Assembly: GCF_001639145.1 (NCBI RefSeq)
Contig: NZ_LROY01000001.1
Location: forward strand, 1,180,501 to 1,244,500
DNA length: 64,000 bases
Source: Microbulbifer sp. Q7
Lineage (GTDB): Bacteria > Pseudomonadota > Gammaproteobacteria > Pseudomonadales > Cellvibrionaceae
Direction: 5' to 3'
In this document: one piece after another, positions 1-52,755 of the stretch
How the letters are laid out: each line of letters opens with the position of its first letter
Position numbering within the stretch: the stretch's first letter is position 1
Made by a program: the position numbers and the translations under genes
Notes under the pieces: generated by a model
Seen by the model: the letters and a program-made list of their open reading frames with translations, nothing else
Told to the model about the DNA's origin: nothing
Databases searched by the model: none

Positions 1-1473
1 GTCAAGGCGGACGTTGCGGTAAAAAACGGGCGCATCGCGGGCATCGGCAAGGCGGGCAATCCGGATGTGCAGGACGGGGTCGAGATCGTTATCGGCCCGG
101 GAACCGAGATCATTGCCGGGGAAGGGTCGATCCTGACCGCGGGCGGCATCGATGCACATATCCATTTTATCTGTCCGCAACAGGTGGAAGAGGCGCTGAT
201 GTCCGGTGTGACCACCATGATCGGCGGCGGTACTGGTCCGGCGACGGGCACCAATGCCACCACCTGCACCCCAGGCCCGTGGAATATCGGCAAAATGCTG
301 CAGGCTACCGACAGCCTGCCGATGAACTTTGGCTTTCTCGGCAAGGGCAATGCGAGTTTGCCAGAGGCCCTGGAAGAACAGCTGGATGCCGGCGCCTGCG
401 GTCTGAAATTGCATGAAGACTGGGGCACTACACCGGCGGCGATCGACTGTTGTCTGACGGTGGCGGAAAAATACGATGTGCAGGTGGCGATTCACACTGA
501 CACCCTGAACGAATCCGGTTTTGTGGATGACACCATCGGCGCCTTCAAGGGCCGTGCGATTCACACCTATCACACGGAGGGGGCCGGTGGCGGCCATGCG
601 CCGGACATTATCAAGGCCTGCGCGTCGGACAATGTTCTGCCGTCGTCCACCAATCCCACGCGCCCGTTCACGGTAAACACTGTAGACGAACATCTCGACA
701 TGCTGATGGTGTGCCACCACCTGGACACCAGCATTCCGGAAGATATTGCGTTTGCCGATTCCCGCATTCGCAAGGAAACCATTGCCGCCGAAGATATTTT
801 TCACGACCTCGGCGCCTTCAGCATGATTGCATCGGATTCTCAGGCGATGGGCCGTGTGGGCGAAGTGATTACCCGCACCTGGCAGACCGCGCACAAAATG
901 AAAGTGCAGCGCGGCAACCTGGCAGAAGACTGCTCCGGTGAAACCGCCGGCGCGGATAATTTCCGGGCGCGCCGTTATATCGCCAAGTACACCATCAACC
1001 CCGCTATTACCCACGGCGTTGCCCACGAGGTGGGCTCCATCGAGGTTGGGAAACTGGCGGACCTGGTACTGTGGAAGCCCGCCTTTTTCGGCATCAAACC
1101 TTCGATGATTTTGAAAGGCGGGATGATTGCCGCCGCGCCCATGGGCGATCCCAACGCTTCCATTCCCACGCCACAACCCGTGCACTACCGGCCCATGTTC
1201 GGCGCCCACGGAATGGCCGCGGCGAAAACCTCGGTGACCTTTGTGCCGCAGGCGGCGCTGGAAAACAGCGTGGGGCAAAAGCTGGGCCTGCAGCGCAATC
1301 TGGTGGCGTGTAAAAATACGCGCAATATCCGCAAGAAAGACATGCTGCTGAACGACTGGCAGCCGGACGTCAGCGTCGATCCGCAAACCTATGAAGTGCG
1401 TGCCGATGGCGAGTTGTTGACATGCGAGCCGGCCACAGAACTGCCACTGGCCCAGCGCTACACACTGTTTTGA
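1..1473 (+). CDS. ureC: Urease alpha subunit UreC, 5' end cut by the window edge
   Basis: Catalytic subunit of the cytoplasmic nickel enzyme that hydrolyses urea to ammonia and carbamate. The frame is open from base 1 ([16 protein letters not shown]...), giving 490 residues; UreC is normally about 567, so roughly 80 N-terminal residues lie outside. Visible hallmarks are the metal-ligand HIH of HIHFICPQ, the lysine that is carbamylated to bridge the two nickel ions (GLKLHEDWG), and the flap/catalytic histidine segment MVCHHLD. The protein ends in the usual RYTLF. ureE follows after 47 bases, so ureD, ureA and ureB are expected upstream, outside the window. Confidence 0.98.
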
Positions 1474-3594: not shown

Positions 3595-3648
3595 TACGCG
3601 AGACCAGCAATCGACGCGCTCCGGACGAATCACCGGGACGCGAAGAAC

Positions 3649-3700
3649 GGGCGGTGGGTAACGGTTTTTACAGGCGTTACCCGGTGCTTTGCCGCTATCC
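3649..3700 (+). repeat. Short hairpin resembling a miniature copy of the palindromic repeat family
   Basis: GGGTAACG (3656-3663) and CGTTACCC (3675-3682) pair perfectly over 8 bp with an 11-base loop. The right flank CCCGGTGCTTTGCCGC matches the right flank of the long copies at 26.9, 38.3 and 42.4 kb, so this looks like a shortened member. It lies between the convergent urease operon and response-regulator gene, where it could end transcription from either side. Confidence 0.5.
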
Positions 3701-3749
3701 AGGCCGCTAGCATCCGCTAGCCGCTGCCAGCCCCTGTCAGCCCCATCAC

Positions 3750-26614: not shown

Positions 26615-26737
26615 TAGAGCTCTAATCCAGTCGGTCAGAATTTGCGCGCAAGTTATCAGGTTGGTGGGAAACTTCAACCTGTGGGGGGCGGATAGCCCTG
26701 CGGTGGTTTTCGGTCAGGTTTAGTGGCGTCGCTGCTA

Positions 26738-26844
26738 CCGGTAAACCCCATGCGAGACACGAGCTAGGCGCCCCCCCTCAACCCATCCATGGGGGCTCGG
26801 ACGCGGCCGTCCAGGCCGCGTACCGTCTTGCGAGGGGTTTCCCG
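26738..26844 (-). repeat. Palindromic repeat, degenerate copy in reverse orientation
   Basis: Outer arms 26739-26758 and 26825-26844 are imperfectly complementary (AAACCCC...GAC against GTC...GGGGTTT). The inside, read on the minus strand, has GAGCCCCCATGGATGGGTT, matching the core of the copy at 40980-41127. It lies back to back with the next copy, both in the ettA/hibch gap. Confidence 0.6.
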
Positions 26845-26929
26845 ATATCAGCGCCTTTGCTTTGAGTATCGTGCTTTCTACGGTCTTCCGAGTTGCCGGC
26901 TACGAAGTAAGGGAGGTCAGTGCTAAGGC

Positions 26930-27078
26930 GGAGTGGCGGGGAAAGGTTTTTAAAAGCGTCGGCGACAGGGGCCGAAGGCGCCGCGTTGAAGCGGCCGGGC
27001 CACGTCGCCGACGCAGCGTACAGGGATGTATCCACAGCGGTTTTGAAAACCTTTCCCCGGTGCTTCGCCGCCACCATA
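26930..27078 (+). repeat. Palindromic repeat with nested inner palindrome
   Basis: Outer arms 26937-26955 and 27041-27059 pair over 19 bp with one G-U. Inside, GCGTCGGCGAC (26956-26966) pairs perfectly with GTCGCCGACGC (27004-27014). The core TACAGGGATGTATCCACAGCGG follows the family pattern, and the right flank CCCCGGTGCTTCGCCGCC extends the stem. Upstream of the HIBCH gene it would form a very long RNA hairpin. Confidence 0.8.
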
Positions 27079-27183
27079 GGAGCGTTAGGACGTACCACCG
27101 AACATCGCAGGGTGAAGGAGGTAATGCCACCACCACCCCATCTATGTTTAACTTTGCCCCAAATAAGACAAGCGGGAACCAGT

Positions 27184-38240: not shown

Positions 38241-38306
38241 TCGTTTAGCGCGGACTAAAGGGCTCCCTAGCTACGAAGTCGACTGCTCCGATGCGAAGCA
38301 AGGCTG

Positions 38307-38400
38307 CCGGGGAGGGCTTTTCAAAACCGTCGTCGCCATGGATGGCGGCGCCGGAGCGTACATGGATGTACTCGCAGCGATTTTGAAAAGCCCTCCCCGG
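38307..38400 (+). repeat. Palindromic repeat with perfect 20-bp arms, upstream of nrdR
   Basis: 38307-38326 and 38381-38400 are exact reverse complements (CCGGGGAGGGCTTTTCAAAA and its partner). The core GTACATGGATGTACTCGCAGCG follows the family pattern. It sits between the polyamine-binding protein and nrdR; the nrdR promoter must lie between it and 38515 (about 115 bases) or upstream. Confidence 0.85.
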
Positions 38401-38514
38401 TGGCCTTGCGCCACCTGAAGCTGTGAGTGGTTCCACGAATCCCCGCCGCCTGGAGCAGCCTAAATTTCCGCCTTGTGGTAAACTGCCGCCCACTTTTTCG
38501 AGGGCCCTCTCCCC

Positions 38515-40944: not shown

Positions 40945-40979
40945 TCGAGGCGATGTAGTTTGAATTGAAGCGGATGATG

Positions 40980-41127
40980 CCGGGTAAAGCTTTGCGAGAC
41001 GTTGATTCGCTTCGCTCACCCTGCGGGCGCCTTTGGCGTCCAAAGCGTACGCTTTGTCCGCGAGAGGGACCTCGCGGAAGAGCCCCCATGGATGGGTTCA
41101 CGGCGTGTCTCGCAAAGCTTTACCCGG
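40980..41127 (+). repeat. Palindromic repeat with perfect 21-bp arms between ribE and ribBA
   Basis: 40980-41000 and 41107-41127 are exact reverse complements (CCGGGTAAAGCTTTGCGAGAC and partner). The interior is longer than in other copies (about 106 bases) and has the core AGCCCCCATGGATGGGTTCACGGCG, shared with the degenerate reverse copy at 26.7 kb, plus inner inverted repeats (CGTACGCTTTG, GGACCTCGCGG). Confidence 0.85.
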
Positions 41128-41221
41128 TAGCAGCCGCGCCACGGACTAGCGACGAAGTCACGGTGCAGCGTGCGAAATTTGAGATTTGCCTCGTGGGCGA
41201 ATCGAAAGAACTAGAGGTTTT

Positions 41222-42337: not shown

Positions 42338-42433
42338 GCAATCACTGAGAAGCTACTGCGCATCTTTCAGCGATTTCCGTGGATGGAAAGCATAGGGTTT
42401 AAGAACCCGAATTTTTGAATCGAAGGTGGAGTG

Positions 42434-42526
42434 CCGGGGATCAGTTTTCAGGAGCGTCGCAAACAGGAAGTTTGCGCCGCAGCGCCCAGGGATGGGTCTA
42501 CAGCGGTCCTGAAAACTGATCCCCGG
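42434..42526 (+). repeat. Palindromic repeat with perfect 20-bp arms between ribBA and ribH
   Basis: 42434-42453 and 42507-42526 are exact reverse complements (CCGGGGATCAGTTTTCAGGA and partner), and the flanks GGTGGAG/CTCCACC extend the stem to about 30 bp. The core CCCAGGGATGGGTCTACAGCGG follows the family pattern. The 265-base gap holds nothing else I recognise. Confidence 0.87.
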
Positions 42527-42602
42527 TGCTCCACCGCCACTGCCCCAGGGCTCGAAGTACAAAACGGGTCCGGCAGGGAACTAGCAGAAAACGGAAAAAA
42601 CT

Positions 42603-46943: not shown

Positions 46944-47080
46944 CTGAAAAATTACTGCGCGTCTGCCTGGCGATTCCCGGCGGTGCTCGGAATGCTCATG
47001 TACTTAAGTACACTCCGCTTCCTGTGCTCCGGCGGCAACCACCAGACAGCCGCTCGCTGCATCTTTCAGCGGTCCCGCCC
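46944..47080 (+). repeat. Long imperfect palindrome upstream of rsgA
   Basis: An approximately 135-base imperfect inverted repeat centred on GTACTTAAGTAC (47000-47011). Matching blocks include CTGAAA/TTTCAG, CTGCCTGGCG against the CCACCAGACAG side, and CGGCGGTGCTC against TGCTCCGGCGGC. The centre (CGGAATGCTCATGTACTT) resembles the ribD-ribE element at 40.2 kb. The rest of the 860-base ribA-rsgA gap (46611-46840) has a smaller ATCGAAAAC/GTTTTCGAT stem near 46663-46712 and no supported gene. Confidence 0.55.
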
Positions 47081-50301: not shown

Positions 50302-50370
50302 CGTACTTCCTGTCTCTGTTTTATTTGTCGTGTATTCGTAGCGCTTAACGTTGATGTTAAGGCAGAGCGC

Positions 50371-50450
50371 AGGGTGGAGCATTTGGAAACCGTCGCAAAC
50401 AGGGATGAATTCACAGGGGGCGCCTAGCCCGGTTCCAAATGCTCCACCCT
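50371..50450 (+). repeat. Palindromic repeat upstream of the DUF885 gene
   Basis: 50371-50388 pairs with 50433-50450 over 18 bp without mismatch (AGGGTGGAGCATTTGGAA and partner). The core ACAGGGATGAATTCACAGGGGGCGCC keeps the family GGGATG..TTCACAG. Right flank CTGTGATCTGCCGCC matches other copies. Confidence 0.8.
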
Positions 50451-50510
50451 GTGATCTGCCGCCACTAAGTATGTTCGGAGCACCGATCTAGGTGCCGGGG
50501 CGGCCAACCA

Positions 50511-50604
50511 CCGGGTATTCGTTTTCAAAACCGCTGTGAATACATCCCTGTACGCTGCGTCGGCGACGTCCCTGTCGCCGACGCTTTTGAAAACGAATAC
50601 CCGG
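50511..50604 (-). repeat. Palindromic repeat with perfect 20-bp arms, reverse orientation
   Basis: 50511-50530 and 50585-50604 are exact reverse complements (CCGGGTATTCGTTTTCAAAA and partner). The core, read on the minus strand, is TACAGGGATGTATTCACAGCGG. It also has the inner palindrome GCGTCGGCGAC/GTCGCCGACGC found in the 26.9-kb copy. It lies 38 bases after the dxs stop, in opposite orientation to the copy at 50371, and may end dxs transcription. Confidence 0.87.
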
Positions 50605-50642
50605 CACTTGGCCTTCGATTCGAGTAATGCGCGTTGTTAGCG

Positions 50643-52574
50643 TTATATTGCTGCTGCCTGTCCTTTTGGCTGGGACTGGTGCATTTGCGACTGGCGTTCG
50701 CGGATTTGTTGTTCGATACCCTGGGCATCAAGGCCGATTTCGGCGAGCAGTTTGGGGTGCTTGCCGTGTTCGATGATTTTGTCGGGCAAGCCCAGTTGCA
50801 GCAGGGGCACCGGAACAATGCGTTGGTTCAGGTATTCTGAAACTGCGCTGCCCGCGCCGCCGGCAACGGTGTTTTCTTCGAGCGTTACCAGCAACTCGTG
50901 GCTATCGGCCAGGCGGTCAATCAGTGCTTCGTCCAGCGGTTTCACCCAGCGCATGTCCACCAGGGTTGCCCCGAGTTTTTCTGCCGCTTCACGCGCCGGG
51001 GCCAGCAAGGTGCCGAAGCTCAGAATGGCAATGTCCTTGCCTTCCTGAATCACGCGGCCTATGCCCACCGGCAACGCGGTCATTTCTTTTTCGATTGCGA
51101 CACCCGGGCCAGTGCCGCGCGGGTAGCGCACAGCGGATGGGCCCTGGTGCTGGTATGCGGTGTACAGCAGCTGGCGGCATTCGTTCTCGTCAGCAGGCGC
51201 GGCGATGACGAGGTTCGGCAGGCAGCGCATAAACGTCAGGTCGAAGCTGCCCGCGTGGGTGGGGCCGTCTTCGCCAACCAGGCCAGCGCGGTCGATGGCG
51301 AAGGTCACATCCAGGTTTTGGATGGCCACGTCGTGCACCAGTTGGTCGTATCCACGCTGCAGGAAGGTGGAGTAAATGGCCACTACCGGCTTCTGGTCTT
51401 CACAGGCGAGGCCGGCTGCGAGGGTAACCGCGTGTTGCTCGGCAATGGCCACATCGTGGTAACGCTCCGGAAAGCGCTCGGCGAACTCGACCATACCGGA
51501 GCCTTCACACATGGCCGGGGTGATGCCGACGAGCTTGTCATCCTGCTCGGCGGTATCGCACAGCCACTGGCCAAAAATATCCTGGTACTTCGGGCCTTTT
51601 TTCTTTGTCTCGCTGTTTTTTTCTGCCGACGGAGCCACCTGGACCTTGGGCTCCGGCTCGAGCTTGTTGAGCGCGTGGTAGCCCACCGGGTCTTCTTCCG
51701 CCGGGCCAAAGCCCTTGCCCTTGGTGGTGACGATGTGCAGCAGCTGCGGACCGCGCTGGTTGCGCAGGTTGCGCAGGGTGTGCACCAGGTCCTGCATATT
51801 GTGGCCATCGAGCGGGCCCACGTAGTTGAACCCCAGCTCTTCAAACAGCGTGCCGGGGGTAATCATGCCTTTGACGTGTTCTTCGGTACGGCGCGCCAGC
51901 TGCCAGGCTTTGGGAATGACAGACAGGATCTTGCGGCTGCCCTCGCGCATGTTCAGGTAGGTTTTGCTGGCGAGAATACGCGCGAAGTAGGTGGCGAGGC
52001 CGCCCACGTTCTTGGAGATGGACATGCGGTTGTCGTTCAGCACCACCAGCATGTCTCTGCCGGTGTGTGCCGCATGATTCAGGGCCTCGAACGCCATACC
52101 GGCGGTCATGGCACCATCGCCGATCACCGCCACCACCTTGCGCTCGTCCGGCGAGCCCAGGGCCATGCCCAGCGCTGCACTGATGGAGGTGCTGGAGTGA
52201 CCCACACCAAAGGTGTCGTAGGGGCTCTCGCTGCGCTTGGGGAAGCCCGACAGGCCGCCCTGCTGGCGAATGGAGAGCATCTGCTCGCGGCGGCCGGTAA
52301 GAATTTTATGCGGGTAGGTCTGGTGGCCCACATCCCACACCAGCCGGTCTTCCGGGGTGTTGTAGATGTAATGCAGGGCGATGGTCAGCTCCACCACGCC
52401 GAGTCCGGCGCCAAAATGGCCGCCAGTCTGGCCCACGCAGTAGAGCAGGTATTCGCGCAGCTCGCTGGCCAGCTCGGGCAACTGTTTTTCCGGCAGCGTG
52501 CGCAGTTGGGCCGGGTCGTCGATCTGGTCGAGCAGCGGCGTGGACGGGCGCTGGCGGGGTATCTCGTCGAACAT
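50643..52574 (-). CDS. dxs: 1-deoxy-D-xylulose-5-phosphate synthase Dxs
   Basis: First enzyme of the MEP isoprenoid pathway: thiamine-diphosphate-dependent condensation of pyruvate and glyceraldehyde 3-phosphate. The 643-residue protein has the TPP motif [62 protein letters not shown] and [18 protein letters not shown] 52574 ([17 protein letters not shown]) fits the family start; frame open upstream has no match. Its usual partner ispA is 9.4 kb away on the same strand. Confidence 0.97.
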
Positions 52575-52755
52575 CAAGGGTCCTGATTCGGGCATCCGGG
52601 CCCCGCACGCCTGGCGGCAGCCCAAGGTATCAATTGCAACTGATATAAGAAGCGGATTGTATGCCCACCGCGGGGAGATTGCATCCCGCGCGAATGCTGG
52701 CTCGCCGGTCAGCCTCTTCCTGTGTCTGCCGGCGATGCTCGCTCCGCTGGCGGAT

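Follow-up and report, generated by a model that had tools for sequence, protein, structure and literature searches.

Why do hairpins scattered through one bacterial genome differ from one another in the sequence of their arms and still match, arm to arm, within each copy? The question is raised by a stretch of 64,000 nucleotides from Microbulbifer sp. Q7 (contig NZ_LROY01000001.1, positions 1,180,501 to 1,244,500), hereafter the window, in which one such hairpin lies at 38307. The original prediction, made from the letters of this stretch, had described six dispersed hairpins with matched arms, and these do exist: they head the window's list of 18 inverted repeats, with arms of 28-32 nt that are 81-93% complementary and spaced by 44-106 nt. 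The hairpins probably all belong to a single intergenic element in dispersed copies, which represents a divergent Microbulbifer lineage with the TwoAYGGAY (RF01731) architecture. The prediction knew of no named family with this pattern, which does not hold, as the architecture is the TwoAYGGAY plan, though below the cut-off of that model. The plan is already known, and what is new here is the lineage, its abundance, the evidence on the strand, and the turnover of arm alleles.

The copy at 38288..38419 (+) lies in the gap between a potF-like gene and nrdR (gene names from NCBIfam), has an A-type core, and is matched at 138.8 bits by R1, a covariance model built from five window copies. Its left arm (38298..38329, +) is 91% complementary to the right arm given by the inverted-repeat listing (38378..38409, +). 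Between the arms, folding and the RF01731 alignment place two inner hairpins on the same strand: hairpin 1 at 38331..38351 with the loop ATGGAT at 38338-38343 (Rfam notation), and hairpin 2 at 38358..38371, which reads GTAC-ATGGAT-GTAC with its loop at 38362-38367. Each window copy has this build: the outer stem measures about 30 bp, frequently includes CCGGG and TTTT, and contains a copy-specific segment; the conserved inside consists of two small hairpins with ANGGAY loops, of which the 38307 copy has ATGGAT twice. The variable hexamers that had been reported from the arms of the window copies are present as quoted, and the outer stem repeatedly shows a tandem U.G/G.U wobble. RNAalifold recovers the same structure from five copies; for 22 of its 44 pairs, one or more of the copies have both partners changed. 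In total, the window holds six good copies and one degenerate copy, and the element measures 120-190 bp.

The element is abundant in the Q7 genome. R1 has at least 140 matches there at E <= 10 (150 of 652 candidates scored), which reduce to 112 places, as 28 of them fall on the opposite strand at a place already listed. From these, 110 copies were extracted for analysis, with one partial match and window 3635-3703 omitted, and at least four further copies lie beside the listed ones (in L031, L279, L292, and L296). The pattern ACANGGATGTN{3,12}CAGCG has 20 matches, some of which are not elements, versus none for a reversed control. Among congeners, R1 matches range from 0 to at least 85 per genome, where one copy may match on both strands. 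G007 (80% complete) and G044 have no match, and G003, G004, G009, G011, and G019 have one or two. Twenty congener stretches chosen for other genes, which are the congeners' own DNA and not a true negative set, gave one R1 match of 29.9 bits (L393, from the element-bearing G006) and one of 13.5 bits. The 20-base core ACAGGGATGTATTCACAGCG is present in at least 120 stretches of genome_contigs, and its carriers among the matches listed include Halomonas, Marinobacter, Sedimenticola, Porticoccus, Zobellella, Pectobacterium, and others. R1 matches 39 of the 41 ACAGGGATGTATTCACAGCG loci searched (of 80 named loci); in L078 the match covers the inner hairpin alone, and in L125 it ends at the contig end. 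Plasmid and phage collections contain no match for one 136-base copy, and the literature searched, in the portions available, holds no account of these elements as repeats.

The own-genome covariation set consists of 116 matches from 68 stretches, which give 112 distinct rows in an alignment fitted to R1; some of the matches are the same copy met again in overlapping loci, and in three rows a listed copy is matched on its reverse strand. In this set, 95.9% of cells are paired as against 70.1% in shuffles, and the covariation score is 0.690 versus 0.196, with none of 500 shuffles as high. In the outer stem, 97.1% of cells pair and 28 of 29 pairs show two-sided change. The arms themselves are highly variable: two own copies have a median of 31 of 60 arm letters in common (maximum 56), and 38 distinct hexamers occur in the 49 copies with the form C-N-N-GG-N6-TTT. 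The loci from other genera (the ACAGGGATGTATTCACAGCG set) were picked by their core, which leaves the arms as the independent test of covariation. Here, two-sided change is found at all 29 outer pairs, 93.1% of cells are paired, and the score is 0.754 versus 0.167 in shuffles, the alignment again being fitted to R1. These results support an outer stem that is free in sequence yet bound to pair: what is kept is the pairing and not the arm sequence, which is why the matched arms are private to each copy. The check proposed in the original prediction, a collection of copies by covariance model with a test of covarying pairs, found arms that vary between copies and pairs that covary.

The external stem of TwoAYGGAY (RF01731) is described as "not well conserved". 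The RF01731 model covers its whole length on the 38307 copy at 32.9 bits, where the cut-off is 43. Among 229 genomes of the class, it matches at E <= 0.01 in 19 and above the cut-off in 11, six of which have from 6 to at least 11 matches each. Copies folded from the RF01731-matching genomes show the same plan as the own copies (two of the 21 extracts, L415 and L417, were mis-cut); arms that vary between RF01731 copies but match within each copy were seen in G270, G125, and G138. In the reverse direction, R1 matches five of the 19 above-cut-off and one of the 10 below-cut-off RF01731 loci fetched (in G238, G270, and G125, which represent three genera), with E values of 4e-15 to 7e-12. The long outer stem and the two inner hairpins with ANGGAY loops resemble TwoAYGGAY, which is likewise present in multiple copies in several other gammaproteobacterial genomes, and an enclosing stem with covariation is found both in the own genome and in other genera. 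Loop 2 reads GGGA or TGGA in 90 of the 112 distinct rows, and 83 of 110 own copies contain two or more CA(N)GGA(Y)G. In contrast, the own copies stay below the Rfam cut-off, number more than 100, and have mostly ARGGAY loops, and their repeat behaviour is absent from the published description as far as it is accessible. Since the RF01731 plan is matched but the scores remain below the cut-off, the element appears to follow the TwoAYGGAY plan and to form a lineage beyond the reach of the Rfam model.

The wobble pairs indicate which strand folds. The arms of the 110 own copies contain 192 G.U and 32 A.C combinations, both scored alike. When two conserved wobble columns are excluded, the 112 aligned rows have 47 G.U versus 3 A.C in the outer stem and 32 versus 12 further in. 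The ANGGA motif is likewise confined almost entirely to one strand, being present in the sense-strand inner part of 108 of 110 copies and in the antisense of two. Strand-symmetric mutation would equalise G.U and A.C, whereas G.U is in large excess, so it is the sense strand, as a single strand, whose fold is kept; the asymmetry fits both RNA and single-stranded DNA (ssDNA) as the working form. Together with the covariation, it supports the selection on the fold that had been suggested from the window copies.

How the arms change was followed between the Q7 genome (G000) and its sister G042, which is 92.2% identical over 63.5 kb. Both flanks were located in fetched G042 stretches for 93 of the 110 copies; the other 17 mean little because those stretches were centred on G042 copies. 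Four of the 93 sites were short or empty, leaving 89 for comparison, and at 76 the interval contained a G042 element (where there were several, the more similar one was used). Arm identity in these 76 pairs falls into two heaps, with 30 at 56-60 of 60, 18 at 44-55, and 28 below 44, while non-orthologous copies mostly have 24-36 of 60. The 29 pairs with an element identity of at least 0.94 contain 26 one-sided arm changes and no two-sided change, and the choice by whole-element identity disfavours, without excluding, two-sided ones. Point changes therefore strike single arms and are not quickly copied to the other arm. The 23 pairs with identities of 0.75-0.94, which mix arm lineages, contain 48 two-sided changes, and their one-sided changes are 36 of G.U type to 7 of A.C type (p 9e-6). 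Larger arm differences arrive already matched.

In the ribBA-ribH gap, where the Q7 copy lies at 42415..42545 (+, B-type core, R1 138.6 bits), the element is found in all 13 syntenic relatives, 12 by script and G045 by its sequence; the script misses some elements and wrongly called G045 empty here and G040 empty at the 50371 and 50511 sites. The arm hexamers are GATCAG, TATCAG, TATAAG, GATACG, GGGAAG, TATTTG, GCAAAC, or GCGAGC. Ten of the 13 genomes carry an identical hexamer on the two arms; in G052 and G020 a single letter differs, and the hexamers do not match in G042, whose copy is a chimera with a G050-like left arm and a G000-like right arm. The G021 and G038 copies are one compensated pair away from that of G000. 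At the 50371 site (50351..50470, +, R1 89.1 bits), one half of a 3'-to-3' inverted pair with two arm alleles across species, the G000 allele is common to G002, G045, and G021 (57, 53, and 51 of 60) and the G042 allele to G038, G050, and G051 (56, 54, and 54 of 60), despite G000-G042 flanks that are 93-95% alike. The other half of the pair, the 50511 site (50492..50623, -, R1 139.4 bits), lies downstream of dxs (50643-52625, -); there, the G000 arms group with those of G045 (57/60) and the G042 arms with those of G050 (58/60). The 26930 and 38307 copies, in turn, have the same arm lineage in both sisters (59 and 54 of 60). The copy upstream of ribBA (40960..41147, +, R1 58.7 bits), with a C-type core and an extra internal insert, was not found in G042, and its arms are identical at 60 of 60 positions in G021 and 58 of 60 in G040. 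The 38307 site is without the element in G018, G051, G050, G052, and G040.

Cores can also be exchanged with both arms kept, as at C1:56199 and C2:2252145, where A and B cores were swapped; core types were assigned by rough patterns, and these two swaps were counted as real, as were four gains or losses of the GGCGCCTAG module. At many sites the sister genomes have a wholly different but matched arm allele, which shows whole-allele replacement; at two window sites this allele also occurs in species that are less closely related. Shared cores with private arms are what is expected if exchanges that split an arm pair are selected against, and the last step, selection, is our inference. The statement that the arms reflect compensated change rather than simple duplication stands for changes within an arm lineage, as at ribBA-ribH, and fails for the many differences that are whole-allele replacements. 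No dedicated mechanism of arm copying is needed for matched arms to differ from almost every copy to the next.

The copies have the habit of a dispersed repeat. All 16 element pairs within 400 bp are inverted, and 13 of them are 5'-to-5', with a start-to-start distance of 173-184 bp in nine. Based on crude calls of open reading frames (ORFs), 28 of the 110 copies lie in convergent and four in divergent gaps, 17 lie inside a called ORF, and six have no neighbour; copies in co-directional gaps are sense in 30 and antisense in 25 cases (p 0.59), and copies sit near stop codons, with median distances to the stop of 51 and 40. The motif ACGAAG occurs about 22-23 nt ahead of the AAG of the stem in 22 of 110 copies. 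About 160 bp are shared, within unrelated surroundings, by a recent duplicate in G000, which has a relative at a third site in G042; the best ectopic arm match, 57 of 60, belongs to one recent duplicate family, and the others are at most 56 and mostly about 30. With more than 100 intergenic copies and inverted doublets, the element resembles REP, BIME, and REPIN sequences as portrayed in PMC2817692 and PMC3116915. RAYT-linked REP sequences were considered as a candidate identity: high copy number, intergenic position, and inverted doublets agree, but a correlation with RAYT (Y1) was not found, and hypervariable arms around a conserved core distinguish the element from REP, BIME, and REPIN with RAYT. 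ERIC and YPAL are also intergenic palindromic repeats of more than 100 bp in Gammaproteobacteria, but their sequence is conserved throughout and they are not known to have the double ANGGAY hairpin. Among 40 congeners, 37 of which have a Y1 transposase match (PF01797), Y1 abundance does not track element number: G012 (53 element matches) and G022 (52) have no Y1 transposase, a single Y1 match of 29 bits is present in the own genome, and the element-poor G003, G009, and G014 carry strong Y1 matches. The habit is BIME-like, yet the element is no RAYT-linked REP.

Of the rival explanations, a purely DNA-level mobile palindrome of the REP/BIME or IS200/IS605 kind, whose folded ssDNA would be a transposition substrate with no RNA role, seems less likely than not. 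It would account for the copy number, the inverted pairs, the presence in both orientations, the proximity to stop codons, and the recent duplicate, and the strand asymmetry is compatible with ssDNA. However, the Y1 transposases do not follow the element, coarse bins, with GC skew taken only from the stretches fetched, showed no replication-strand bias, and the conserved ANGGAY loops are left unexplained. Arm-to-arm copying by template switching in the hairpin, which the original prediction had offered beside selection on the fold and which would keep arms matched without such selection, is not needed and seems improbable. The near-perfect arms, transversions included, the two-sided changes in the lineage-mixing intermediate pairs, and the one-armed chimera in G042 speak in its favour. 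In contrast, the most alike pairs have one-sided changes only, which leaves room for a slow rate of copying; moreover, copying would not yield an excess of G.U over A.C, and the chimera remains unrepaired.

Rfam labels the family as a cis-regulatory messenger RNA (mRNA) element, and two copies flank ribBA, which lies in a riboflavin gene cluster. Action on the adjoining gene is nevertheless unlikely, given the nearly equal sense and antisense counts and relatives that lack the element at the same site, as at 38307. PMC2864571, which scores TwoAYGGAY "n" for cis-regulation, also counts against it. Ordinary intrinsic terminators share the strong hairpins and the nearby stop codons, but the right arm is followed by the consensus GCCAC instead of a T-run and the covarying inner hairpins would have no explanation, which makes this the least credible reading and a very improbable one.

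Several observations weigh against a TwoAYGGAY-type element whose folded strand acts as RNA and binds CsrA, a candidate partner taken up below. Nine own places match RF01731 at E <= 10, with a best score of 39.7, and all are below the cut-off of 43, while R1 misses 14 of the 19 above-cut-off RF01731 loci, including the best-scoring ones of G210, G198, and G077. Strict AYGGAY loops are in the minority: loop 1 is ATGGAT/C in 17 and loop 2 TGGA in 25 of the 112 rows, and most loops are AGGGAY or AGGAN (ARGGAY type or shorter). In the other-genera loci, two of five covariation measures are barely above shuffles (14 and 86 of 500 as high), with 38 two-sided pairs versus 35.4 and 141 pair types versus 136.6. 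The 29 most alike orthologous pairs have G.U-type over A.C-type changes in a ratio of only 12 to 4 (p 0.08), and G.T is tolerated better than A.C in DNA hairpins too. The missing orientation bias is odd for an mRNA element and is the main fact against an mRNA role. The Y1 search of the congeners did not find a mobiliser. Finally, the proposed link to CsrA rests on loop likeness, and strict ANGGA occurs just once in 48 of the 110 copies and not at all in two.

With the TwoAYGGAY reading retained, the long outer stem, free in sequence and bound to pair, would serve to present the two small ANGGAY-loop hairpins, and the element may spread as a non-autonomous repeat. Its working form would be a single strand, RNA or ssDNA, and one dimeric protein may hold both loops. 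Judged by loop sequence, CsrA/RsmA is the leading candidate for this protein, a tentative assignment that is plausible but somewhat less likely than not, and each transcribed copy would then be a CsrA landing site or decoy. A CsrA link for TwoAYGGAY was proposed in PMC4333381. CsrA/RsmA-sequestering RNAs such as CsrB and RsmZ likewise have GGA in hairpin loops and in pairs, but the own elements are dispersed singles and not one multi-site small RNA (sRNA), and this comparison is by loop sequence. Two or more strict ANGGA motifs occur in 60 of 110 copies. A wider proposal, speculative and rather unlikely as a whole, is that TwoAYGGAY is no cis-regulatory RNA but a mobile element widespread in Gammaproteobacteria. 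Its folded strand would carry a dual site of the CsrA type, it would spread via Csr or be tolerated through it instead of using Y1, and its arm alleles would predate the species and be swapped as wholes at fixed sites. Apart from this proposal, an orphan Rfam motif gains testable biology, with more than 100 covarying copies in one genome, a strand-specific fold, allele turnover at individual sites between sister genomes, and a protein that is a candidate for binding it.

A single csrA copy is found in the own genome. As a separate observation, G003, G004, G009, G010, G014, G043, and G049 have 5-19 csrA matches and 1-11 element matches, and most other genomes have one csrA and many elements. 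This pattern is broken by G006 (9 csrA and 65 element matches), G011, G019, and G044 are low in both, and five of 40 genomes have no csrA match. The pattern may reflect shared ancestry and is not used as evidence.

The remaining window copies are less regular. The copy at 26917..27079 (+, A-type core, R1 126.6 bits) has about 31 nt inserted in hairpin 1, and this insert is absent from G042. Of the two degenerate or mini copies that had been proposed at 26738-26844 and 3656-3682, the former is real but degenerate: it is a C-type copy on the minus strand (26724..26850) with a GGCGCC-TAGC module and a CCATGGATGG loop, seen by its fold and not among the R1 matches. The latter falls in a weak, possible core-less remnant at 3635..3703 (+, R1 15.1 bits), and its E value of 6.48 is chance-like. 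The usual 3' core segment is replaced, in window 26724-26850 and in many own copies, by a G-run module with GGCGCCTAGC at its end; this module is found across core types and is gained or lost between the sister genomes with the arms unchanged.

Other matches were seen nearby. The antisense of A-type elements (window 50477-50587 (+); L007, L010, L011, and L013) resembles Rfam Ysr224, a Yersinia sRNA, at 22-33 bits (cut-off 70). The ribBA gaps of relatives (L193, L202, and L204) also hold short hairpin repeats of GTAGGGTGGATAAGCGCAGCG and CTGTAGGAGCCTGCTTGCAGGCG types. A near-threshold match to Rfam sX9 lies at window 46998-47071 (+), with 43.0 bits against a cut-off of 44, and a similar stretch is present in the ribBA-ribH gap of G020, so that it may be a second dispersed repeat. 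Window 1-193 (-) matches Rfam 5_ureB_sRNA at 64.4 bits (cut-off 40) and is cut by the window end.
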